From: a virus
IMG/VR virus record: IMGVR_UViG_3300030943_000180
Coordinates: 1 to 22,803 of that record
Length of the DNA stretch: 22,803 bases
Direction: 5' to 3' (one strand)
A program made the position numbers and the translations under genes. The notes beneath the pieces were generated by a model. It ran no database searches, was not told where the DNA came from, and saw only the letters and a list, made by a program, of their open reading frames with translations. Below, piece by piece: positions 1 through 15,987 of the stretch; within the stretch, counting starts at the first letter, position 1, and every line of letters begins with the position of its first letter.

Positions 1-299
1 ATGGCTTCGACAAAGGATTTATTGCCTTCCTCACCATAGGGAAGCTGCTGGGTGGCATCTTCAATAGCCTTGCCAACCAATGTCGCGCGCTTGCTTTCGT
101 TCAATTCTTTTTGTGCCTGCAGCAGGCTATCCAGGGCCTTGCCCAGGTCGGCTTCTGTGCCCACGCCGAGCTTTACGCGCATGCTCTCTTCTAGGCGCTT
201 AAGCTGGGCATCGCCCATTTTTTCAAGCGCGTCGCGGTTAATACCTTCAAAAAGTTCAGGATGCTCTTTGAGCATCTTCAAGAGTTCTTCCAGGTTCAT
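1..299 (-). CDS. Possible nested scaffold protein, in-frame internal start inside the protease gene
   Basis: Met302 of the protease frame is preceded by GGAGGACGAA directly before ATG, a near-ideal Shine-Dalgarno site within coding sequence. The product starting there is predicted to be acidic, helical and rich in Leu, Glu and Lys (segments such as LEELLKMLKEHPELFEG), typical of scaffold or delta domains. In phage lambda, scaffold Nu3 is made from an in-frame start inside protease gene C; that precedent is established, but its use here is inference. The C-terminus lies outside the window. Confidence 0.5.
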   Translation of the reverse strand, partial: MNLEELLKMLKEHPELFEGINRDALEKMGDAQLKRLEESMRVKLGVGTEADLGKALDSLLQAQKELNESKRATLVGKAIEDATQQLPYGEEGNKSFVEA

Positions 300-1202
300 T
301 TCGTCCTCCGGTTTTTGGTTGATTGATTCGGTTAATTCCGCCGCGTTGGAAAACGACGGGTCGCCCACCAGGTCAGCGCCGGTGAACGAACACCAGGTCA
401 CTTCCTCGATGAGGGTCTTGCCTTCTTTGGCAGATTTGGCGTCATAAGCGCCCCGGACTGATCCGCCGGGCAGAACGCCAGCCTCCATCAGCGCAAGCAC
501 GTCACGGCCTTTGCTGGTCTCGATGAGATTGCCCTCGATGTCGAGCCGCTCACCGTTCCAGTGCAAGGTATCCCAGACAACCACGGTCTCCAGGAATTGA
601 GGGCGCTTGTTGCCTTTTTCGGTTGGATGTTCCACTTCACCTGTCAAGATCTTCAGCCGTCCCTGCCCGGCGCTCTCATGCAGATGGTTTTTCCATTCCA
701 AAACCGCTGATTCGAGAACGCTCTTTGAGTATCGGCGATGATTGCCATTGAGCTTGTCCGCTTCCATCAGGCCATTGATGCGGATGCGGCGGGTCTTATC
801 TTCGGCCTTCGCCTCAAGCAGTTGAACCTGCGCCGGTATGATGCTTTCTTCGAGGCGCTTGCCCTTGTGCTTACTACCTTCGCGACTTTCGGCCATGGTT
901 TTATCGGCATATTTCATTTCGATGATTTTCCACTGGTCGCGGGTTGAAAACAGGTAACTTTCGCCTGACTTTTGAAAGTCAACCTGGTAATACTCATCTT
1001 CATTGAGCGGATCGCGTTTGGATGTGCCATCCACCCATAGCCTGGCATAGACCACCACATGATCGTCGAAGACTTCCTCGATGTTGTATTGCCAGGCACC
1101 GGTCATGTTCGGCTGCGGGAATTGCAAATAAAACGCTTTCCGGATGGACTGCCAGACATAATCAATCGAGCCTTTTACATATTCTTCCAATTTTTTTGAC
1201 AT
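1..1202 (-). CDS. Prohead (capsid maturation) protease, T4 gp21 / S80-like, C-terminus cut by window edge
   Basis: Four hundred codons are visible before the left edge; the start ATG at 1202 follows an AGGAG ribosome site. Residues about 139-255 carry the gp21-type serine protease pattern: GEVEHP with the likely catalytic His192, a beta-strand segment, then PGGSVRG with the likely nucleophile Ser248. Such enzymes digest the internal scaffold and trim capsid proteins during head maturation. Two things are unusual. About 130 residues precede the protease domain and match nothing I recognise. After residue 300 the sequence becomes a charged helix-rich, scaffold-like region with an internal ribosome site and ATG at 299. 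The gene follows the terminase by 10 bases, with no portal gene between them. The assignment rests on motifs only; the order after the terminase supports it. Confidence 0.75.
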   Translation of the reverse strand, partial: MSKKLEEYVKGSIDYVWQSIRKAFYLQFPQPNMTGAWQYNIEEVFDDHVVVYARLWVDGTSKRDPLNEDEYYQVDFQKSGESYLFSTRDQWKIIEMKYADKTMAESREGSKHKGKRLEESIIPAQVQLLEAKAEDKTRRIRINGLMEADKLNGNHRRYSKSVLESAVLEWKNHLHESAGQGRLKILTGEVEHPTEKGNKRPQFLETVVVWDTLHWNGERLDIEGNLIETSKGRDVLALMEAGVLPGGSVRGAYDAKSAKEGKTLIEEVTWCSFTGADLVGDPSFSNAAELTESINQKPEDEMNLEELLKMLKEHPELFEGINRDALEKMGDAQLKRLEESMRVKLGVGTEADLGKALDSLLQAQKELNESKRATLVGKAIEDATQQLPYGEEGNKSFVEA

Positions 1203-1212
1203 GGGCTGCTCC

Positions 1213-2802
1213 TCACAAGCCTGCATAGGAACTGAAAATTTCTTCCGAACTGACGACCACAGGCGGGCTGCTGGCCGGTTTCTTGCCGTCTGGATCAGCC
1301 TCATCCGCGATCATCTGCACCGATCCGCTGATAAAGTCGATCATGTCATCGTGCGGGCCCTTCGGGAAAGCCGCGGCCTGGCGGATCAGGCGCTTATTCC
1401 AGGCGCCACGCAGCAGGAAAACATGCTTATTCTTGGCGCGCCGTCGCCAGCCCCGCGCCCGCGAAACTTTGTCGCCTTTGGGAACCACGGCCATGATTTC
1501 CTTGTCAACCAGGGCAGCATCTTTCAGGAATTGTTTGAGCACCAACACCTGAAATGCCACATCTTCGAAGCCCCAGATCGTGCCAGCTTCGCGATCTGAG
1601 AGCATGCGCTCACGCACCTCAGGCAGGAAGACCTCTTCAAGATCGCGTTCGTCGATTACGTCGCGGATATACAGGTTCTCACCAGCGAGCGCCACTGCGC
1701 CGGTGGCGTTGAAATCGCTGGTTTCACTGGCGCCCAGGGCCAGGTCGATATAAGAGAACCATTGCAGACCTTCTGGACATTTATCGACGATCTTGAAATC
1801 GTCGTCATCCAAAAACCCACCGATCGCCAAACGCGGCATCTGCTGATACTGCGAAATAAACTCAAAATCTTCGATGTTGGCGGAAATTGTGCGCAGCTTT
1901 TTCGCATCATGTTTTTTTGGCCAAAGTGGCTCACCAGGTTGACGACCCATCTGGTCCCCGCCCATCGGAATGAAGATGCCACGCAGCAGGTTTTCGCGGT
2001 ATTGCTCCTGGGTAGTCGGGTAATCTTTTTCATCCAGGGCCAGGGCCGGGAGAAATACGACATCCCATTGGTCTGCTTCTTCATCATTGACAGAATCAGC
2101 CAGCAGTACCCCGGCGATATCTTCCTGATCCCAGCGTGTCAGGATCACAATGATGGCCGCGTTGTCTTCCTGGCGGGTATAAAAACTGGACCGGTACCAG
2201 GTAACCAGCTTTTTGCGATTGGATTCGGATGCGGCTTCATCGCGGTTTTTAAACGGATCATCCAGGATGATCAGGTGGCCGCCTTTCCCGACCAGGGCGC
2301 CGCCCACACCAGCGCTGACCATCCCGCCGCTGTGATTCTCCAGGGCCCAGGCTGCCGCTGAGTGTTTGTCTTCATTGATCTCAACCGGCAGCTCCCGGCT
2401 TGAGCGACTGCCGAAAAGGTTCTTATAGCGTTCACCTTCGATCAGATCGCGAACCTTGCCACTGTGTTCAGTCGCCAGATCTGCGCCATAGGATGCCAGA
2501 ATGATGCGTAACTCGGGATTTTTACCGAGCACCCAGGCAGGAAATTTCTGAGAACATGAACTAGACTTCCAATATCGCGGAGGCATAAAGACCATCAAAC
2601 GGCTGATGCCATGCTGCCCGCCGGATAGCACATAATCGGCGACCTGCTCCAGCTTGCCAGCCAAAAACTGCAGGTGCTGCGCGTCGGTTGGGTACTTCTT
2701 ATCTACATAGCCGCAAAAATCCAGGAAGTGGCGCCGCGCCTTTTCGCGCTTGACCCTTTCCTGCACACCGCTGCCGGGGATAAAGCCACTATTCTGCGGC
2801 AT
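1213..2802 (-). CDS. terL: Terminase large subunit (DNA-packaging ATPase and nuclease)
   Basis: This 529-residue protein drives DNA into the prohead and cuts the concatemer. The ATPase half shows PPRYWKSS at the Walker A position (Lys79), LIILDDPF as Walker B (Asp181-Asp182) and LTRWDQED as coupling motif (around 222). The RNase H-like nuclease half shows YIDLALG (Asp353), a Glu in WGFEDVAF and the terminal HDD (484-486). Length and motif order fit the TIGR01630 / Terminase_6C type. The start at 2802 is preferred because GGGAGG lies 8 bases upstream; the ATG at 2835 has no such site. The start overlaps the preceding gene by 14 bases. The oddity is Walker A: the family usually reads PPRHGKS, and here Trp replaces the glycine before the catalytic lysine. 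Confidence 0.95.
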   Translation of the reverse strand: MPQNSGFIPGSGVQERVKREKARRHFLDFCGYVDKKYPTDAQHLQFLAGKLEQVADYVLSGGQHGISRLMVFMPPRYWKSSSCSQKFPAWVLGKNPELRIILASYGADLATEHSGKVRDLIEGERYKNLFGSRSSRELPVEINEDKHSAAAWALENHSGGMVSAGVGGALVGKGGHLIILDDPFKNRDEAASESNRKKLVTWYRSSFYTRQEDNAAIIVILTRWDQEDIAGVLLADSVNDEEADQWDVVFLPALALDEKDYPTTQEQYRENLLRGIFIPMGGDQMGRQPGEPLWPKKHDAKKLRTISANIEDFEFISQYQQMPRLAIGGFLDDDDFKIVDKCPEGLQWFSYIDLALGASETSDFNATGAVALAGENLYIRDVIDERDLEEVFLPEVRERMLSDREAGTIWGFEDVAFQVLVLKQFLKDAALVDKEIMAVVPKGDKVSRARGWRRRAKNKHVFLLRGAWNKRLIRQAAAFPKGPHDDMIDFISGSVQMIADEADPDGKKPASSPPVVVSSEEIFSSYAGL

Positions 2803-3481
2803 GCTGATCGCCTCCCAGGGCTGAAAGCTCATCATCGCTCAGCTCGGACAGATCCGCCTTGCCATCATCGCGGATACGCTTGAGCAGGTCCTTGGCCGCA
2901 TAAGCATCCAGGGCATCCAGCTCGGCATCGCTCAGGTCACCCAGATCCTGGGCTGCGCTGTTGGTGTTTACGTCCAGTTTCGGGTTCGGCATGTCGCGCG
3001 TAAGTTCGACAAAGAGACGCTGCTGAGCAGCCGCCTTATAATCTTTTTGCGACGCGCCCCAGCCGATGGCTTCAAATACGCCCGGGCGGAATTGCATCAA
3101 CTGCTCTCCCTGTAGATCCGCGATCATCTGATCGATTGGGTATTGCTTGCGCCATTCGGCAATACGTCGGTCGCTGCTCAAGCCAAGCACCTGGCGGGAA
3201 AATTCGTCCTGAGTGGCTGGCTGGCGTTTGTCTTTCGGGATACTGGCCCAGGCAACAAATGCGGCAATTCGCCAGGGCACACCAGCTTCCATCATCCGGT
3301 GATATTGTTCAAAGTAGGCTGGTACTTTATCCACACCCAGAGCCAACTTGGAAGCCAAAGAACGTTCCTGGATTTCTGCAGCAGATAGCGCGATTGAGCC
3401 TTCACCGCCCTCAGCAGCTCCCTGCACGGTTTGGGCAAAGCCTTCCAGTTCCATCTGGGTGATCAGCCGTATGCGTGACAT
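2789..3481 (-). CDS. Probable terminase small subunit (DNA-recognition partner of TerL)
   Basis: The protein has 230 residues and lies directly before the large terminase, overlapping it by 14 bases, the usual place for a small subunit. Residues about 55-120 look like a helical DNA-binding domain: segments such as GVPWRIAAFVAWASIP, then TQDEFSRQVLGLSSDRRIAEWRKQYP, resemble the helix-turn-helix of terminase small subunits of the phBC6A51 type. The last 60 residues are acidic with two similar stretches, DLSDAELDAL and ELSDDELSAL, a possible TerL- or portal-docking tail. The start at 3481 follows an AAGG-rich site. I recognise the family by context more than by sequence, so an unrelated DNA-binding protein is possible. 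Confidence 0.6.
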   Translation of the reverse strand: MSRIRLITQMELEGFAQTVQGAAEGGEGSIALSAAEIQERSLASKLALGVDKVPAYFEQYHRMMEAGVPWRIAAFVAWASIPKDKRQPATQDEFSRQVLGLSSDRRIAEWRKQYPIDQMIADLQGEQLMQFRPGVFEAIGWGASQKDYKAAAQQRLFVELTRDMPNPKLDVNTNSAAQDLGDLSDAELDALDAYAAKDLLKRIRDDGKADLSELSDDELSALGGDQHAAE

Positions 3482-3892
3482 TTAACCAACCTTTTTACGT
3501 GGTGAGCCACCACTTCCGCTTGATGCTCTGACCCAGGTATCATGATTGTTAATAGAGATCGTCAATTCATCGATCTTATTGACCATTTGGGCAAGAACCT
3601 CGTTGCTACGCGTGTCGTTCATCAACCACTGGGCTTGCATGCTTGCCAGGAAGCTTTGCCATTGCGCATCACGCTGTTTGGCTTGTTCAGCTTCCCAGAT
3701 GCGTTGTTTTTCGCGCTCAGCGATCCGGGCAACGTCTTGTTTCTCACGCTCTGCTGCTCGAACTGCATCCTGCTTTTCAATCCACGCATTTTGCTCTCGC
3801 CAAAGTTTATAGAACCCGCCAGCGATTGCGGCCGTCGTTAAAATCAATATTCCGATCAAGCTATATTGCACCCACAACTCCGCTGGCGGCAT
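3482..3892 (-). CDS. Membrane-anchored coiled-coil protein of the late operon, function unknown
   Basis: The 136-residue product has one N-terminal membrane segment (residues about 9-28, rich in Ile, Leu and Ala), then a charged coiled coil. Its core contains two near-identical AEREKQ units (DAVRAAEREKQ and DVARIAEREKQ). The tail is short, basic and Gly/Ser rich (SSGSGGSPRKKVG). A single membrane anchor followed by a coiled coil next to a holin-like gene resembles an inner-membrane spanin, or a small holin accessory. Its position immediately after the holin-like/pilin gene (8-base gap, AGGTGA ribosome site) suggests a role in lysis or envelope. This is inference from layout; no family is recognised. 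Confidence 0.7.
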   Translation of the reverse strand: MPPAELWVQYSLIGILILTTAAIAGGFYKLWREQNAWIEKQDAVRAAEREKQDVARIAEREKQRIWEAEQAKQRDAQWQSFLASMQAQWLMNDTRSNEVLAQMVNKIDELTISINNHDTWVRASSGSGGSPRKKVG

Positions 3893-3900
3893 CGGATCAC

Positions 3901-4356
3901 CTACAGGGAAGCGTTGATTGTGCTAAAAATATTGCTGATCAGCGGTCCCATGAAGGTCAGCGCAGCCAGGACCACTACCGCAACCAAAACCAGGATCAGC
4001 GCATACTCAACCATGCCCTGGCCTTTCGAGATAGCCAGGCGGGCTTTAGCGGCTGCCGTGGGTTTGAATACCTGATGCACCGTGTAATTGATACCAAGGA
4101 CCAGCAGGTAGATCTGCACCATTGCGGCCAGACCAGCCTGATCGCAGACGATTTGCGTTGTGAAGAGGTGGATGCAAACACCGCCATAAATAGCCGCCAC
4201 AATTGCAGCCAGCACTACAGCCATAATCTCGCGTTTCTTGAGGTCTGAGAGTGCGTCGTACCAGCCTGAAAGACCAGGAAACCAGTCGAACAGGATCGCA
4301 GTCAATCCTGCCAGGAGATACGCCAAAAACTCAGGGGTAACAGAAAGATTGAACAT
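3901..4356 (-). CDS. Fusion of a holin-like multi-TM domain with a Flp-type prepilin segment
   Basis: The protein has 151 residues. Residues 1-98 hold three hydrophobic segments (about 10-27, 45-65, 76-96) resembling small phage holins. Residues 108-151 are a complete Flp/type IVb prepilin signature: KG, cut site after Gly112, then QGMVEY with Glu at +5 and Tyr at +6, followed by a hydrophobic helix and a short NIFSTINASL tail. Flp pilins are cut by TadV/CpaA-type prepilin peptidases at exactly G-x4-E-Y. The mature 39-residue piece would match short Chloroflexi Flp pilins. The reading frame is continuous, the ribosome site AAGGAG precedes the ATG, and it is the first gene after the late promoter. 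Either it is a phage-made pilin subunit carried on a holin-like anchor, or the pilin helix serves as a fourth membrane helix of a holin. Confidence 0.75.
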   Translation of the reverse strand: MFNLSVTPEFLAYLLAGLTAILFDWFPGLSGWYDALSDLKKREIMAVVLAAIVAAIYGGVCIHLFTTQIVCDQAGLAAMVQIYLLVLGINYTVHQVFKPTAAAKARLAISKGQGMVEYALILVLVAVVVLAALTFMGPLISNIFSTINASL

Positions 4357-4519
4357 ACAAAGCTCCTTTTTACAAACAACGAGCGCCCGGCACCAAATAG
4401 GTGCCGGGCGCTCAACTCCGGGATGGCCAATGCGATTTAATCGGCCTGCTTATGTTGGGGACTGGCTGAGGGGGCAGCCAATCCCCGATGGTGAGGGTCG
4501 TAAGGGTTCGGCCCTTACA
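4357..4519 (-). promoter_or_regulatory. Structured 5' leader of the late operon with three hairpins
   Basis: Between the predicted late transcription start (about 4519) and the first late gene lie about 160 noncoding bases containing three stems. Hairpin 1 is 4500-4518 (7 bp, GTAAGGG/CCCTTAC). Hairpin 2 is 4457-4486 (12 bp with one G-U pair on the minus-strand RNA, 6-base loop). Hairpin 3 is 4381-4413 (14 bp perfect, 5-base loop). Three stable stems in tandem suggest an RNA regulatory element such as a put-like antitermination site, an attenuator or an RNase-resistant leader. No known riboswitch class was recognised. Confidence 0.6.
4381..4413 (-). terminator. Perfect 14-bp GC-rich hairpin just upstream of the first late gene; attenuator-like
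   Basis: GAGCGCCCGGCACC is followed after five bases by its exact complement. On the minus-strand RNA the stem is followed by GUUGUUUGU, a weak U-rich stretch, then the ribosome site AAGGAG and ATG at 4356. It could act as a leaky terminator or attenuator before the late genes, or stabilise the mRNA 5' end. The U tract is imperfect, so termination is uncertain. Confidence 0.5.
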
Positions 4520-4525
4520 CATTAA

Positions 4526-4553
4526 ATTTTAACAGGGTTGAGTCAAATGTCAA
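4526..4553 (-). promoter_or_regulatory. Sigma70-type late promoter
   Basis: On the minus strand a perfect -35 TTGACA (4548-4553) is followed after 16 bases by TAAAAT (4526-4531), five of six matches to the -10 consensus. The surrounding 90 bases are strongly AT rich. It lies between the terminator at 4611-4630 and the three-hairpin leader, and so gives the structural genes their own transcription start. Confidence 0.75.
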
Positions 4554-4605: not shown

Positions 4606-4630
4606 GAAAAACACCCTGCTAACAGGGCGT
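4606..4630 (-). terminator. Rho-independent terminator ending the middle operon
   Basis: On the minus strand ACGCCCTG, loop TTAG, CAGGGTGT forms an 8-bp stem with one G-U pair and is followed by TTTTT. It lies 10 bases after the last gene of the middle operon. On the plus strand the same sequence has an A-C mismatch in the stem but is followed by TTTTTT, so weak bidirectional activity is possible. Confidence 0.85.
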
Positions 4631-4639
4631 TTTTTGTCT

Positions 4640-5783: not shown

Positions 5784-6424
5784 TAGATTTTCTCCATAAG
5801 CTTAAATTCGATCACCCATACCCAGGGATTGAAATCCCAACCATAGCCGCGGCCAAAGTTGATTTCATCCCATAAAACGCTATACACTTTTTTAGCTGAC
5901 TTTCCATAATGTCTATCTTGGGGAGCCCTCGTATCTACAAAATAATAACCTTCGTTGTCTATTTGCAGACCTTCAGCTATCGCGTCTGATTCGCTGATTT
6001 TCTGTACACACTGCACGCGAATATCTATGATTTCGAGCATGATACGACTGGCCACGCGTGGCATAAACATTGATGATTTCCAGGGTCTCGACAACTTAAA
6101 ATCTTCTGCGCTCAAATCGGCAGCGTAAACAATGGCATTACTCGGAATGAAAATATCATCATCTTTCGAGCCAGCTTCAGGATGCGGTTGCCATGTCTCT
6201 TTCACCCAAATATGATCGCCAATCCAACCGTATGGGCATTTGCGTTCCTGGCTCCAATCCTGATCATTTTTCACACACCAGGCCCAATAATAGGGTTCAA
6301 AGAAGTTCTGACACTGCTTCCAACCGGTTGGTTGTGGCTTGATAATGCGCCGGGTCTGCGTTTTCATGCCAGCGAGCAGGGCCTTGACCATTTCAGCCTT
6401 GAATAATAACGGTGTCTCTTTCAT
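5783..6424 (-). CDS. ASCH-like (PUA-fold) phage protein
   Basis: The 213-residue protein opens with LLFKAEMVKALLAGMKTQTR, the typical beginning of phage ASCH-like proteins. It continues with GWIGDHIWVKETW, with FMPRVASRIMLEIIDIRVQ, and a C-terminal GYGWDFNPWVWVIEF strand. ASCH folds resemble PUA RNA-binding domains and are thought to bind RNA or nucleotides; the precise substrate of the phage members is unknown. The start at 6424 follows AAAGGAG. The stop overlaps the next gene (DUF5131) by one base (TAATG). My recollection is that ASCH-like genes and Gp37/Gp68 genes often sit together in phages, so a joint role in RNA or nucleotide modification is plausible but unproven. Confidence 0.75.
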   Translation of the reverse strand: MKETPLLFKAEMVKALLAGMKTQTRRIIKPQPTGWKQCQNFFEPYYWAWCVKNDQDWSQERKCPYGWIGDHIWVKETWQPHPEAGSKDDDIFIPSNAIVYAADLSAEDFKLSRPWKSSMFMPRVASRIMLEIIDIRVQCVQKISESDAIAEGLQIDNEGYYFVDTRAPQDRHYGKSAKKVYSVLWDEINFGRGYGWDFNPWVWVIEFKLMEKI

Positions 6425-6436
6425 AATGATCTCCTT

Positions 6437-6700
6437 TCACTCAAATGCCACGTGCGCAGCGTATCTACGTGGCTTAGTTTCATTCCAATCGATCGATCCG
6501 CCGCAAATCGAGCAGCGGATCCCAGTTACCCGGCCAATAATGACCGCGATCACATCCACTTGTTCGGGCATATCCTGACCATAATCAATCGCTTGGCGAA
6601 ATAGTTCCATGATCTCAACCCCGTCATCGATGCGCATTCGACCCAGGATATGTTTGCGTGGACATGACTTGAACCCAATCGTTTCTCCGTCTCGGTTCAT
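6437..6700 (-). CDS. Small protein with a CxxC pair, function unknown
   Basis: The product is 87 residues when started at the ATG at 6700, which overlaps the previous stop as ATGA and has AGGCGG upstream; a longer frame from 6805 lacks such support. It contains one SCPRKH segment near the N-terminus and CSICGG near the C-terminus. Together these might bind one zinc ion (Cys, His, Cys, Cys). The middle is an acidic helical stretch (IDDGVEIMELFRQAIDYGQDM). No family is recognised. It lies between an unknown 176-residue gene and the ASCH-like gene in the same operon. Confidence 0.6.
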   Translation of the reverse strand: MNRDGETIGFKSCPRKHILGRMRIDDGVEIMELFRQAIDYGQDMPEQVDVIAVIIGRVTGIRCSICGGSIDWNETKPRRYAAHVAFE

Positions 6701-7227
6701 ATCGCCGCCTGATTTAACATCCATGATGCCCATCCACACACAATTACACTGGCCCTGGGCAGCCAGGCAGCAGCCCGGATCGGGATCTCGATGCCTTCGC
6801 AGCATCCGTGTAATGTCATCTGCTCCGGAATGTTTTTGGAGCTGCCTGGTACAAATGCGGCGCCTGGGAATGCATCATAACGGGCCCAATATGTATCTGC
6901 TGCGTCCTGGATAATGGCGCTCAAGCGTTCACGGCCTGTGCGGCGCCAGAAAATTGCGGCGACCAGCTCGCTCTCGTCACCGGTCCAGCCCTGCGGCCGC
7001 AGCCGGATCGCGTCACGGTAGGGGTAATAAATCTCCAGTTTATGGCGTTGGATGGTTTTGCCCTCGCAGCTCTCGCCAAAGTCCAGAATCCAATCCTGGC
7101 TTTGTAAGGGCACGAACTGGGCAACTATATCCGCCAGATCGACCGGTGCGCCGATACGCAGCACTTGTAGATATTGCAGCCCTTTTTCATACTCGAATCT
7201 ATTCTCAAGTAGGGTGTACTCGCTCAT
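6697..7227 (-). CDS. Protein of unknown function, operon member
   Basis: The 176-residue product starts at the ATG at 7227 (AGGAGG four bases upstream, ATGA overlap with the previous stop). It has a mixed alpha/beta composition with several Trp residues and no membrane segment. The last 30 residues (around SVIVCGWASWMLNQAAI) are moderately hydrophobic. I recognise no motif. The tight coupling to its neighbours on both sides suggests it is translated with them. Confidence 0.65.
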   Translation of the reverse strand: MSEYTLLENRFEYEKGLQYLQVLRIGAPVDLADIVAQFVPLQSQDWILDFGESCEGKTIQRHKLEIYYPYRDAIRLRPQGWTGDESELVAAIFWRRTGRERLSAIIQDAADTYWARYDAFPGAAFVPGSSKNIPEQMTLHGCCEGIEIPIRAAAWLPRASVIVCGWASWMLNQAAI

Positions 7228-7478
7228 GAGTCCTCCTTTTCCGTGCCAATCCATAGATGACCGGGCAAGATATAACGTGCCGTCTTGACCGTCACAACGT
7301 CGACCTGTAACTGTAGTGGCGCAAGGCTTGCGCCATCCGCGGGCATCGCCGTGGGGTGAACCACGCAGAAGGTTGGCACCTGCCCGTATTTTTTTCGGAA
7401 ATAGTCCGCAGCCTTGATGACCTTTTGTACAAGACTTAACTTCGGATCATTGTCAAACCACATCATTCCGGTATTCAT
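7224..7478 (-). CDS. Short conserved-looking protein of unknown function
   Basis: The 84-residue product reads MNTGMMWFDND near the start, then VIKAADYFRKKYGQVPTFCVVHPT and ends with RYILPGHLWIGTE. It looks like a compact alpha/beta fold. From memory, short proteins of this pattern occur as hypothetical genes in Chloroflexi genomes and mobile elements; I cannot confirm this here. AAAGGAG precedes the ATG at 7478, and the start overlaps the upstream stop as ATGA. Confidence 0.65.
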   Translation of the reverse strand: MNTGMMWFDNDPKLSLVQKVIKAADYFRKKYGQVPTFCVVHPTAMPADGASLAPLQLQVDVVTVKTARYILPGHLWIGTEKEDS

Positions 7479-8173
7479 TTTTGCTCCTTTGCGGCCAATT
7501 CAACGGGGATTAGCTTGCCAGTGTGCGCCTGTTTATGGATAGGACACTTCCCAGCGTGACCGCTGTACTGGTTTCTATTCAGCGTCTCAAAGCCACACTC
7601 GCATCGCCATAATGTCGCTGGTTTCGCTGCTACCACGCTGACAGGCACGCTTAGCGGCGCTTCCAGCGTCTTTGAGCGTCGCTTTCCGCTCGTTTCAGCA
7701 GGTTTCAGCGTCGCTGGTTTCGCTTCAGCGACACCCAGCGAAATCAGCGACTTGTCAACGATGCCTACAAGCGCAATTGAGACATCCATCGCTGACGCCC
7801 ACAAGATCGAGAGCAGCATGCGCAAGATATTAAATCCTGCCAGTACACGCGCATCCATCAGCACATAGTTCACTGGTCCAATCAACAATGGCGACATGAT
7901 CAGCAATCCGTAGAAGCCAAATCTTGCATACTTCTCCCTGTTCTTGCCAGTGATGCTTGGCAGCCTGGTGGCCACGTAAGCCAGGCTTAGGTTGATGGTC
8001 AGCCCTGCGAAAAGACCACCGATCTGACCCAATGGAACGCGCAAGACACCAAAGTCCAAAACACCTGCGCCGCCATCCATCAAAGCCCCCGCGCGCATAT
8101 ATTGCGTTGCCTGGTATAAGGCTGCCATGTAAAGCAGCACACTGCTGATTTGCAAACTCCGATTTTTCGCCAT
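7475..8173 (-). CDS. Four-TM membrane protein with a cytoplasmic zinc-finger-like tail
   Basis: The 232-residue protein has four hydrophobic segments (about 7-26, 48-71, 85-106, 113-140), then a Pro/Ala/Lys linker containing AKPATL twice. The tail reads WRCECGFETLNRNQYSGHAGKCPIHKQAH, which could hold zinc through Cys and His residues. If the tail is cytoplasmic it could touch DNA or the FtsK-like motor encoded just upstream (TAA and ATG adjacent, GGAGG ribosome site). Membrane anchoring plus a nucleic-acid-type finger suggests a membrane component of a DNA-transfer apparatus; this is inference. A 15-bp direct repeat lies under the linker. Confidence 0.7.
   Translation of the reverse strand: MAKNRSLQISSVLLYMAALYQATQYMRAGALMDGGAGVLDFGVLRVPLGQIGGLFAGLTINLSLAYVATRLPSITGKNREKYARFGFYGLLIMSPLLIGPVNYVLMDARVLAGFNILRMLLSILWASAMDVSIALVGIVDKSLISLGVAEAKPATLKPAETSGKRRSKTLEAPLSVPVSVVAAKPATLWRCECGFETLNRNQYSGHAGKCPIHKQAHTGKLIPVELAAKEQK
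7614..7724. repeat. 15-bp direct repeat in the linker of the four-TM protein gene
   Basis: GTCGCTGGTTTCGCT occurs at 7614-7628 and again at 7710-7724, 96 bases apart and therefore in frame. The DNA repeat encodes the two AKPAT stretches of the linker, so an internal duplication of a flexible spacer is the simplest reading. Confidence 0.6.
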
Positions 8174-9520
8174 TTAGGCCTCCACCACCCCATTACCGTC
8201 CAGACCGGCCTGGGCGCCCAGACCCGTCACGACCGCGTCCAGACCGTCCAGACCGGTCTGGACATCCATTTTTATGGTCAAACAGAGCGCATTGTCCTGA
8301 TCGGGCCGCACTTCAGCCAGGCCGCGCTGCTGCCAATCGGCCCGCACCCGCCGGGCAGCACGTTCGCCGAGACCATACTGCTGCAGAGCAGGCATGGTCA
8401 TACGTCCCCGGTAATTCGCCCAAACAAATTCGGCGATCCGCTTTTCGGTATCCGTTAGACCATTAGAGTCAGTACGCACCAACAGCGCCTTGGGCACAAA
8501 ATAGGTCTGGATGGTTTCCCATCGATTAGTCATAGCCCGGCCAGGCAGCACCAGACGTTCGGCGCCGGTCTTGCCCAACACTACATCAGAAATACGCTCG
8601 TTTGCCACACGCAGGCAGATCCGGGTTGTCATTTGCTCGCGAACCGGTCCAACGATGTCCTTGCTGAAATCCTGCCCGGCCAGTATCAGCCGGATCCCGA
8701 ATTTCGCCGCGCGCCAGGCCACCTGTGTCGCGGCATTGGCAAACGAACCACGTACGCCACCTGTGCCAAGCACCGTGCCGTTGAACTCATCCAGAACGAC
8801 CAGGACTGGCTGCAGGGGTTCTATGCTGCTCTCTTGCGCCCACTCGTTGTATTCATCTAGTCCGTCCGGAGAATTCCCCGCCTGGTCGTACAGCTTTGCG
8901 CGTTCGTTAATCAACTCTTGTACCCGGCCAATCACATGCAGGCAGCTTTCCAGGGTCTTGCCCACAGGGCAGATCAGCGCAGGATCCTGCTCAAATTTCG
9001 TAAACGTCCGCCCATCCGGGTCAGCCAGCGCAAGCTGCCAGCCTTCATCGCGCGCCTGGAGAGCCATGAGCCTGAGAAAATTAGACTTACCAAACTGGGT
9101 AATGCCAGCCACCAGTGTGTGATTGATTTCGCCATAGCCAATTTCAACTGCCTGGCCGCGCATATCCACACCTAACTGCATCACGCCGCGTCTCCATCCA
9201 TGGAATTCGACCAACTTGGGCAACTGGGGTTTCTGCGACAACAGAATTCCATAGCGCAGCCCGGTATGATTGCCCAGGAAGACCGGCATGCCGCGCAAAC
9301 TCGACGATAAATGATGCGCCGCGGCCTCATATGGTTCAAACTTTGGCAGCCGCCTGTCATCCAGGACAGCAAACAACCAGACCGCGCCCTGATCTGTGCG
9401 TGTCATTACCCAGCGTTCAATCAATGCCGGATCCGTTCCGGTGCGACTGCCAAGTACAGCTTCAACGATCCGCACAACTCGCTGCGCCTTTTCCATGTAA
9501 TTATTCTGAATTGCTAACAT
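8174..9520 (-). CDS. FtsK/SpoIIIE (TraB-like) DNA translocase
   Basis: The 448-residue protein has a P-loop motor: Walker A GITQFGKS (139-146), LALADPDG after it, Walker B PVLVVLDEF (Asp244-Glu245), then a GQDFSKD segment and arginines typical of hexameric FtsK/HerA motors. Residues about 355-420 look like a winged helix (FVWANYRGRMTMPALQQYGL then RRVRADWQQRGLAEV), as in the FtsK gamma or TraB C-terminal DNA-reading domain. It lacks the N-terminal membrane helices of chromosomal FtsK. FtsK-type proteins move double-stranded DNA; TraB moves it between cells in Streptomyces plasmids. Flanking membrane and lipoprotein genes could supply the membrane part. The start overlaps the upstream stop as TAATG with GAGGAG before it. 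The tail contains QTGLDGLD/QAGLDG repeats. Confidence 0.85.
   Translation of the reverse strand: MLAIQNNYMEKAQRVVRIVEAVLGSRTGTDPALIERWVMTRTDQGAVWLFAVLDDRRLPKFEPYEAAAHHLSSSLRGMPVFLGNHTGLRYGILLSQKPQLPKLVEFHGWRRGVMQLGVDMRGQAVEIGYGEINHTLVAGITQFGKSNFLRLMALQARDEGWQLALADPDGRTFTKFEQDPALICPVGKTLESCLHVIGRVQELINERAKLYDQAGNSPDGLDEYNEWAQESSIEPLQPVLVVLDEFNGTVLGTGGVRGSFANAATQVAWRAAKFGIRLILAGQDFSKDIVGPVREQMTTRICLRVANERISDVVLGKTGAERLVLPGRAMTNRWETIQTYFVPKALLVRTDSNGLTDTEKRIAEFVWANYRGRMTMPALQQYGLGERAARRVRADWQQRGLAEVRPDQDNALCLTIKMDVQTGLDGLDAVVTGLGAQAGLDGNGVVEA
8198..8263. repeat. Repeated GTCCAGACC half-sites including an 18-bp perfect palindrome
   Basis: Half-sites occur at 8198-8206, 8216-8224 (GCCCAGACC), 8237-8245 and 8246-8254. 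Inverted copies occur at 8207-8215 (imperfect) and 8255-8263. The pair 8246-8263 is the exact palindrome GTCCAGACCGGTCTGGAC. The array lies under the last codons of the FtsK-like gene and encodes its GLDG-type tail. It may be only a codon duplication, or a protein-binding site embedded in the gene. Confidence 0.6.
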
Positions 9521-14675: not shown

Positions 14676-14936
14676 TTATATAGTTGACAACGCGCGCCCA
14701 AGACGCTCTACAAGATTGTTGGCACGTTCCACTGCCTGGTTGTCATCGCATGCAGTTATCTTGAGGCTCTTGCCATTAACCATATGAACCGTGTACCTGG
14801 TCATCCGACCTGCCCGTCTACGCCCAGAAGAACGCCTGATGTAAGACCCATCCCGTGATGTGCATATGCGCTGCGCCAGAACCTGCTCTATGCGTTCGCC
14901 CAGGTCAGTCGGTAGTGTGAACATATTGTCTGTCAT
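14676..14936 (-). CDS. Small basic protein of unknown function
   Basis: The 86-residue product is Arg rich in the middle (YIRRSSGRRRAGRMTRYTVHM), followed by a short beta-alpha stretch (GKSLKITACDDNQAVERANNLVERLG). It could bind nucleic acid through the Arg patch. AAGGAG precedes the ATG at 14936, which overlaps the Mom-like gene stop as ATGA. No family is recognised. It is the last gene before the palindrome-bearing gap. Confidence 0.65.
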   Translation of the reverse strand: MTDNMFTLPTDLGERIEQVLAQRICTSRDGSYIRRSSGRRRAGRMTRYTVHMVNGKSLKITACDDNQAVERANNLVERLGRALSTI

Positions 14937-15586
14937 GCCATCATCTCCTTGAAAGTAAGTTGATTGCGTTTGGCCCTGATTCGCTGACTTCGACTATTCA
15001 TCTCAGCCAGGCATTGAATGTACGCATCCTGTTGATCTGTCAATCCGGGGATGACCTTCATATAGGTAACCTTGCCATCGTCATTCTTGTGTGAATACTT
15101 AAAACGGCTGGCCATGTAAATCCAACCAGAGTGATATTTCGTATCGCAGTAAGACATGATGCAGCGAATTTGATAAGGGAATGCACAATCAACAGGTGGT
15201 GCTTGCATCAGGTAGTCAAATCCAATCCGCTTCATACTTTCGCGAATGACCAGGCTTGCAGCGTGTGGAACATACTCAGATCCATCTCTCTGAATGCTTG
15301 GCGATAACCACACACGCGCCAGGTTCAGGATCTCCCAACGATCAAAGCGCGCTTTGCGCGCTTGCACATCCTGATAGCTGCCATAGGTAAGTTTGCCTGT
15401 ATAACAGCGCGTGGCTTGCGGCCTGCCGTAGATCAAGCAGCCCACCGGTTCAGCACTCAGCCAAACAATATAAGCAAATGGTCGGCAACGTGGATCTACT
15501 GCTGTATGCCGGTAATGGTGCAAGATGACCTGTTCCTGTGCCCACTTCAACTGCTCTTTGTTGGCAGGTTCAATAATCAGGTTCAT
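14933..15586 (-). CDS. Mom-like DNA-modifying acetyltransferase-fold protein
   Basis: The 217-residue protein has the pattern of Mu Mom relatives: PVGCLIYGRPQA (residues 47-58), then EILNLARVWL (86-94, the RLWI segment of Mom), and SYCDTKYHSGWIYMASRFKY (145-164), matching the SYADTxxxHxGxIYxAxxFxY signature. Mom converts adenine in DNA to a carbamoylmethyl derivative and so blocks host restriction. The substrate here is not proven. The ATG at 15586 is preferred because it overlaps the upstream stop as ATGA; a frame from 15643 is open but less supported. A zinc-ribbon gene lies two genes upstream, recalling the com-mom pair of Mu. It could instead be another GNAT-like DNA or protein modifier. 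Confidence 0.75.
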   Translation of the reverse strand: MNLIIEPANKEQLKWAQEQVILHHYRHTAVDPRCRPFAYIVWLSAEPVGCLIYGRPQATRCYTGKLTYGSYQDVQARKARFDRWEILNLARVWLSPSIQRDGSEYVPHAASLVIRESMKRIGFDYLMQAPPVDCAFPYQIRCIMSYCDTKYHSGWIYMASRFKYSHKNDDGKVTYMKVIPGLTDQQDAYIQCLAEMNSRSQRIRAKRNQLTFKEMMA

Positions 15587-15987
15587 TGCTTTGCCTGTTC
15601 CTTTTTCCAATTCCACCAGCCAAACCAATTCGTTTCCCGCCACTTCATGCTTGCTGCTGTTTCTCGCAGCTTCTCACGCAAACCGTGCATTGTTTCAGGA
15701 TCCCAACCATATTGCCAAAACACATCATCCATCAGCGCATCACAATCCAGTTTTCCGCCCGCGGTATAAATCTCCAGGCTTAATCCCAGCGCTGTCTGAA
15801 TACTCTGGGCCGTCATCAACTTGCGGTACTTATGACCACCATTCTCGGCCATGACCGTCATAGCCATTAGCATCAGGCCTTGCATGTCAGATGCTACCCA
15901 GTGCATTTGTAAGCCGTACTTTACAGCCGCCTGCACGTACTTGTTGACGCTCGCTGTCACCCACACATAATCTTCAGTGTTAGGCAT
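15583..15987 (-). CDS. Trp-rich protein of unknown function, upstream of the Mom-like gene
   Basis: The 134-residue product starts at 15987 (GAGGAG 8 bases upstream). It is mostly helical, with many Met and Trp residues (LQMHWVASDMQGLMLMAMTVMAEN; ending NWFGWWNWKKEQAKQ). No transmembrane segment is clear. It is flanked by a zinc-ribbon gene (8-base overlap) and the Mom-like gene (ATGA overlap), so it is co-translated with both and may be an accessory factor of DNA modification. No motif of known function is seen. Confidence 0.65.
   Translation of the reverse strand: MPNTEDYVWVTASVNKYVQAAVKYGLQMHWVASDMQGLMLMAMTVMAENGGHKYRKLMTAQSIQTALGLSLEIYTAGGKLDCDALMDDVFWQYGWDPETMHGLREKLRETAASMKWRETNWFGWWNWKKEQAKQ

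Follow-up and report, generated by a model that had tools for sequence, protein, structure and literature searches.

Flp pilins are cleaved at the motif G-x4-E-Y, and class I holins, such as lambda S, span the membrane three times with the N terminus out and the C terminus in. Genes for Flp family type IVb pilins have been classed as virulence-factor homologues in Vibrio harveyi prophages (PMC12482185). Phage inhibitors of type IV pilus assembly, i.e., Tip/Gp05, Aqs1, and Zip, target PilB or PilZ (PMC11656802, PMC11436027). Here, we describe a phage gene whose product joins a holin-like membrane domain to a complete Flp prepilin segment. Its C-terminal 41 residues resemble the Flp/Fap pilins of type IVb (Tad) systems (PF04964) in the processing site, Glu5, Tyr6, hydrophobic helix, and short tail. 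Unlike those pilins, the protein has a 112-residue leader with several transmembrane (TM) segments, and its gene belongs to a late phage operon near which no tad genes were recognized. The resemblance to class I holins lies in size, three hydrophobic helices, predicted topology, and a late cassette that includes a one-TM coiled-coil gene, whereas the lack of a significant holin-profile match or of an endolysin gene beside the fusion in the window, together with the extra Flp helix, sets the protein apart from phage holins. As in the Vibrio harveyi prophages, a phage carries an Flp gene, but no holin fusion was reported there and the host phylum is different (PMC12482185). The protein might also shut off or alter the host pilus, as do Tip/Gp05, Aqs1, and Zip, none of which is a prepilin. 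Open-access papers, searched for phage-encoded pilins and pilins in lysis cassettes, yielded no holin-prepilin fusion, and none was found in PHROGs or among GenBank phages.

The window, i.e., the whole stretch of 22,803 nucleotides that was analyzed, is a linear 22.8-kb IMG/VR record, possibly a fragment. It encodes a terminase large subunit, a head maturation protease (Table 1), an integrase, and, in its early region, a Mom-like DNA modification protein (14933-15643, minus strand; PF25680, E 4e-8), which together identify it as a tailed phage. An FtsK/SpoIIIE-like ATPase is encoded at 8174-9520 (minus strand), and a multi-TM gene follows it immediately (7475-8173). No PF01478 prepilin peptidase occurs in the 22.8-kb record, and no Tad family was recognized among the scanned proteins of this possibly fragmentary sequence. 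The putative small terminase gene has no PHROG match. The open reading frame singled out in an earlier note on this DNA is real and lies on the minus strand, which that note had not given. The fusion protein is identical in contigs from two other samples, with 99.98-100% identity in DNA, and the three related contigs share 99.93-100% DNA identity. An assembly chimera was rejected because the same DNA was recovered in independent samples, and host contamination because the gene sits beside those for TerL, the protease, the integrase, and other phage proteins. Its placement at the head of the late operon, also put forward in the earlier note, agrees with the promoter and terminator upstream and with the closely following gene and the terminase genes downstream. 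The promoter was one of five promoter-like sites in the scanned region, against 0.8 expected. The order of promoter and 15-pair hairpin ahead of the first late gene (4553..4380, minus strand) recalls lambda pR'-tR' before the lysis genes and may reflect late antitermination.

Table 1. Features of the fusion gene and its neighborhood (positions in the window).
Feature	Position	Strand	Basis
Fusion gene, 151 aa: holin-like three-TM domain, linker, and complete Flp prepilin segment	4356..3901	minus	ORF with ATG start; Flp_Fap and host-Flp profiles
Holin-like three-TM domain, residues 1-102	4051..4356	minus	Standalone homologues end here; hydropathy
Basic linker AKARLAISKG, residues 103-112, ending at Gly112, predicted to be position -1 for prepilin peptidase	4021..4050	minus	Sequence; alignment to PDB Tad pilins
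Predicted mature Flp pilin, residues 113-151 (QGMVEYALILVLVAVVVLAALTFMGPLISNIFSTINASL), 39 residues, Glu +5, Tyr +6	3904..4020	minus	Flp profiles; register alignment
Ribosome-binding site of the fusion gene, AAGGAGC (core AAGGAG)	4362..4368	minus	Sequence
Terminator-like hairpin, 15 pairs, between the sigma-70-like promoter and the fusion gene	4380..4414	minus	
Sigma-70-like promoter TTGACA-16-TAAAAT, 11/12, 5' of the fusion gene	4526..4553	minus	Promoter scan
Bidirectional terminator-like hairpin closing the upstream (early) genes	4607..4634	both directions	
Next gene, 136 aa, one TM helix and charged coiled coil (spanin- or antiholin-like position)	3482..3892	minus	Starts 8 bases after the fusion stop
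Small terminase-like (TerS-like) gene	2789..3481	minus	Predicted from its place ahead of TerL and its occurrence in relatives
Terminase large subunit (TerL)	1213..2835	minus	phrog_38, E 1.6e-88
Head maturation protease, runs off the window	3..1304	minus	phrog_207, E 2.2e-20

The Flp pilin segment comprises residues 111-151 (KGQGMVEYALILVLVAVVVLAALTFMGPLISNIFSTINASL), and the residues around its processing site are K111-G112/Q113-G114-M115-V116-E117-Y118. In alignments to solved mature Tad pilins (PDB 8u1k and 8u2b), V116 corresponds to residue 4 and E117 to residue 5, so Gly112 occupies the -1 position, Glu and Tyr follow at +5 and +6, and the predicted cut falls between G112 and Q113. The signature read from the letters in the earlier note, with Gly112 and the same Glu and Tyr, is therefore borne out. 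The Pfam model Flp_Fap (PF04964) matches the fusion protein with an E value of 2e-6 and 27.9 bits, under its gathering cut-off of 32.2, whereas a profile made exclusively of host Flp pilins from Anaerolineae gives 74.7 bits (E 1.3e-22). The second-best score of that host profile among all ORFs of the window has an E value of 0.36, a gap that places the match far beyond chance. The C-terminal helix, on whose likeness to pilins the original proposal had turned, is thus recognized by both profiles. A search for the exact back-translated degenerate motif gave one hit in the window and none in 100 shuffles. Two sister fusions described below score 40.6 bits (L021, above the Pfam cut-off) and 31.3 bits (L033) with PF04964. 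The short, mostly hydrophilic leader typical of Flp is absent, its place being taken by 112 residues with three hydrophobic segments.

The N-terminal domain also exists on its own. A 56%-identical protein at the same slot before the terminase in the viral contig L152 ends in LLFKPASRR, where the linker and Flp would begin; its gene is followed by a TM gene and, next, by genes that by eye look terminase- and portal-like. A second standalone homologue (L151, 30%) comes from a genome of the class Anaerolineae, where it follows genes for a spike-like protein and a one-TM coiled-coil protein, the latter weakly matching an Rz-like spanin family (phrog_89, E 0.0075). The Flp part is therefore an add-on. 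Genes of the one-TM coiled-coil type adjoin the holin-like gene in relatives, as they do here. Lysine and arginine counts per loop are 0, 3, 0, and then 4 in the linker region, and the predicted topology is N-out/C-in, which would put the cut site on the cytoplasmic side and orient the Flp helix correctly. An AF2 model of the fusion, of low confidence (pLDDT 60), has helices at residues 8-25, 39-65, 73-86, and 99-150. The domain fits the description of a holin as a small protein with two to four TM helices (by hydropathy and by AF2 helices of low to moderate confidence). No Pfam or PHROG holin profile significantly matches the N-terminal domains of the window fusion or its relatives, the weak PHROG holin scores being those of L021 (E 0.17) and L033 (E 0.34). 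Thus, the holin-type domain of the original proposal stands by position and topology and finds no counterpart among holin profiles; we call it holin-like from its size, helix number, predicted topology, and position. In the window, L033, and L021, the fusion gene has no endolysin gene beside it; the unfused relatives of L005 and L009, at the same slot, lie near GH25 and M23 endolysin genes, respectively.

Relatives were gathered by a motif scan of viral contigs followed by ORF extraction, and such scans favor sequences that retain the motif. Three more fusions of a multi-TM domain to Flp were found (L033, L021, and L029, i.e., four with the window); the earlier note had thought the fusion worth looking for in other Anaerolineae phages. 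Gly -1, Glu +5, and Tyr +6 are retained in 4/4 multi-TM fusions, with none keeping the helix without these positions, and also in L039. The TerL of L033 is 67% identical to that of the window. Its N-terminal domain is related (38%, E 1e-21) to a free-standing L005 protein at the same slot, whose gene is followed by a one-TM gene and then by a GH25 endolysin gene. That of L021 is related to a free-standing L009 protein (38%, E 4e-15), followed by a one-TM gene and then an M23 peptidase gene, and to a protein in the Anaerolineales MAG L034 (E 2e-14). Domains with and without the Flp tail thus pair up as the window with L152 and L151, L033 with L005, and L021 with L009 and L034. By hhalign, similarity was not detected between the N-terminal domain of the window and the other two holin-like families or between those two, so the three are treated as separate. 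Family members retrieved on the strength of their N-terminal domain and read through carry either the whole tail or none, with no degenerate remnant. The linker of L033 is acidic. An AF2 model of L021 with eight relatives (pLDDT 69.5) has three helices, a site-bearing linker, and a separate Flp helix, and its fold comparison against viral and PDB libraries returned nothing below E 0.001. The fusion appears to have been made at least twice more in related viruses, and it therefore probably does something.

Flp was also found in frame with other N-terminal parts. In L039, that part consists of one TM and a soluble stretch; TadG-like (weak Pfam Tad match), TadE-like (by eye, with no Pfam match), and Flp-bearing genes lie at 6111-8126 near an opposite-strand phage terminase. 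In L043 (7698-8126), a Zn-finger-like soluble part is joined to Flp with Ala at -1 among head genes, and translation might instead begin immediately ahead of the Flp part. The L043 operon starts with holin-like, coiled-coil, and GH25 genes, about 7 kb upstream of Flp. The L033 and L043 phages, otherwise different, carry the same Flp lineage and have in common a membrane protein with a GGDEF-like stretch recognized by eye (L119:2950-3555, L120:6223-6810). Pattern matches in L015, L022, L030, and L031 were dropped as chance or doubtful. Among the matches listed for 396 Anaerolineae-class genomes, none was a full-length fusion, and long reading frames that surround Flp in Anaerolineae genomes had seemed to be fusions but proved to be upstream noise or C-terminally extended pilins. 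A phylum-wide search with a two-sequence alignment (A7), run without a positive control, gave no match anywhere.

Flp occurs as a separate gene in further phages. In L037, a one-TM coiled-coil gene, a free Flp gene, and a free holin-like gene follow one another, and in L054 and L055 Flp comes directly before a GH25 endolysin gene. In the L054 and L055 genes (6001-6147 and 745-891, respectively), an in-frame TGA takes the exact place of the -1 glycine codon (AAA TGA CAG GGG), and it does so identically in two samples; TGA ends other genes of these phages and therefore reads as a stop here. Flp lies among tail genes in L024, L040, and L032 and before TerL in L028. Downstream of tail genes, L050 (5974-6742) and L051 (5977-6756) have Flp followed by a TadE pseudopilin gene, the TadE proteins scoring 47.1 and 36.9 bits, above the Pfam cut-off. 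Such free-standing Flp genes, some with TadE, point to a phage use of Flp that is independent of the holin part. The phage Flp module has no match in PHROGs and none among GenBank phages, where the BLAST low-complexity filter may hide some.

The host is presumed to belong to the class Anaerolineae, from two MAG contigs with related phages and from Flp similarity. Genomes of this class frequently have the parts that the phage would need, with Flp in 142/199 and the prepilin peptidase PF01478 in 51/60. The reading we put first, tentatively, is a late phage prepilin polyprotein that would be cut by the host peptidase and whose Flp would then engage the host Tad machinery. The holin-like three-helix domain would act as a very long leader, and the K-G112/Q113 site would lie on the cytoplasmic membrane face, within reach of a host Tad or type IV prepilin peptidase. 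Cleavage by this enzyme, which we consider probable, would split the fusion product into an Flp pilin of 39 residues and an ordinary holin-like protein whose size matches that of its relatives. The Flp segment, freed or uncut, would engage the Tad/Flp machinery and most likely compete with the host pilin, so that pili would be blocked or altered late in infection, while the released holin-like domain would take part in lysis. That the host pilus rather than lysis timing is the target is our guess; pilus interference is slightly favored by the retention of Glu5 and Tyr6, the Flp genes without holin fusions, and the TadE partners. The membrane-embedded glutamate is kept even though a mere anchor would not need one, and Flp alone or with TadE in other phages argues for a pilin role. 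Against a prepilin, the 112-residue multi-TM leader is unlike the usual short leaders, and the acidic L033 linker, the Ala at -1 in L043, and the stop codon at -1 in L054/L055 do not fit. Without a peptidase of its own or a recognized Tad gene, the phage also depends on an inferred host. What the sequences themselves establish is the module, its register, a complete N-terminal domain, and the recurrence in other phages. More doubtful is the wider proposition that Chloroflexota phages repeatedly fused a holin to a prepilin and that host peptidase cuts the polyprotein, tying lysis to the pilus machinery.

Lysis control is the main rival, given that Flp was fused repeatedly to holin-like domains and lies beside lysis genes in L037 and L054, two findings that fit a lysis role as well as a prepilin or better. 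Flp would then serve the holin as a fourth helix with an inhibitory or targeting role; uncut, it would hold the holin inactive or at the Tad machinery until peptidase cleavage or depolarization frees it, and a host membrane enzyme would have become part of the phage lysis clock. The tail is carried by members of three holin-like families whose unfused relatives sit in cassettes with GH25 or M23 endolysins, and the separate Flp adjoins a holin-like gene or a GH25 endolysin gene. We nevertheless regard this alternative as rather unlikely: Flp is also paired with TadE, a constitutive peptidase would be a poor timer, and the fusion genes of the window, L033, and L021 have no endolysin gene as a neighbor. 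A purely lytic role is further at odds with L043, where Flp stands among head genes far from the phage's own lysis cassette.

Comparison of the Flp codons between phages gave dS values of 1.1-2.8 or saturated and dN values of 0.11-0.35. The module is under purifying selection between phages, some of which may date from its time in hosts. Among themselves, the tails of the window, L021, L033, and L043 share 75-85% identity, compared with 68-82% to the nearest host Flp (n=54), the window segment reaching 78% with the nearest sampled Anaerolineae Flp. As these tails resemble each other at least as much as they do host pilins, they look like a phage-borne lineage that moved between N-terminal domains. 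The L029 tail, 88% identical to a host Flp, looks like a separate acquisition. These data bear on a simpler alternative, in which the Flp segment was co-opted as a mere extra membrane helix with no link to pilus machinery. Abundant host Flp pilins would be an easy source of TM helices, and the AF2 model of the fusion has a single long C-terminal helix; however, dN lies far below dS, and the processing-site residues persist in all four multi-TM fusions despite unrelated N-terminal domains (partly an effect of ascertainment), which makes this explanation improbable. Least likely of all is a functionless recombination accident that fused a host flp in frame to a neighboring phage gene, as the host-like L029 tail and the decay evident from the L054/L055 stop codon might suggest, because late cassettes show the arrangement in members of three or more holin-like families, saturated dS goes with low dN, and the same gene is found in three samples.

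If cleavage of the prepilin polyprotein is real, the fusion would be a viral polyprotein processed by a host prepilin peptidase, and it would link late or lysis genes directly to the pilus, an organelle to which some phages adsorb. It also points to a wider, apparently little-noticed habit of Chloroflexota phages, and perhaps of others, of carrying their own Flp and TadE in late operons.
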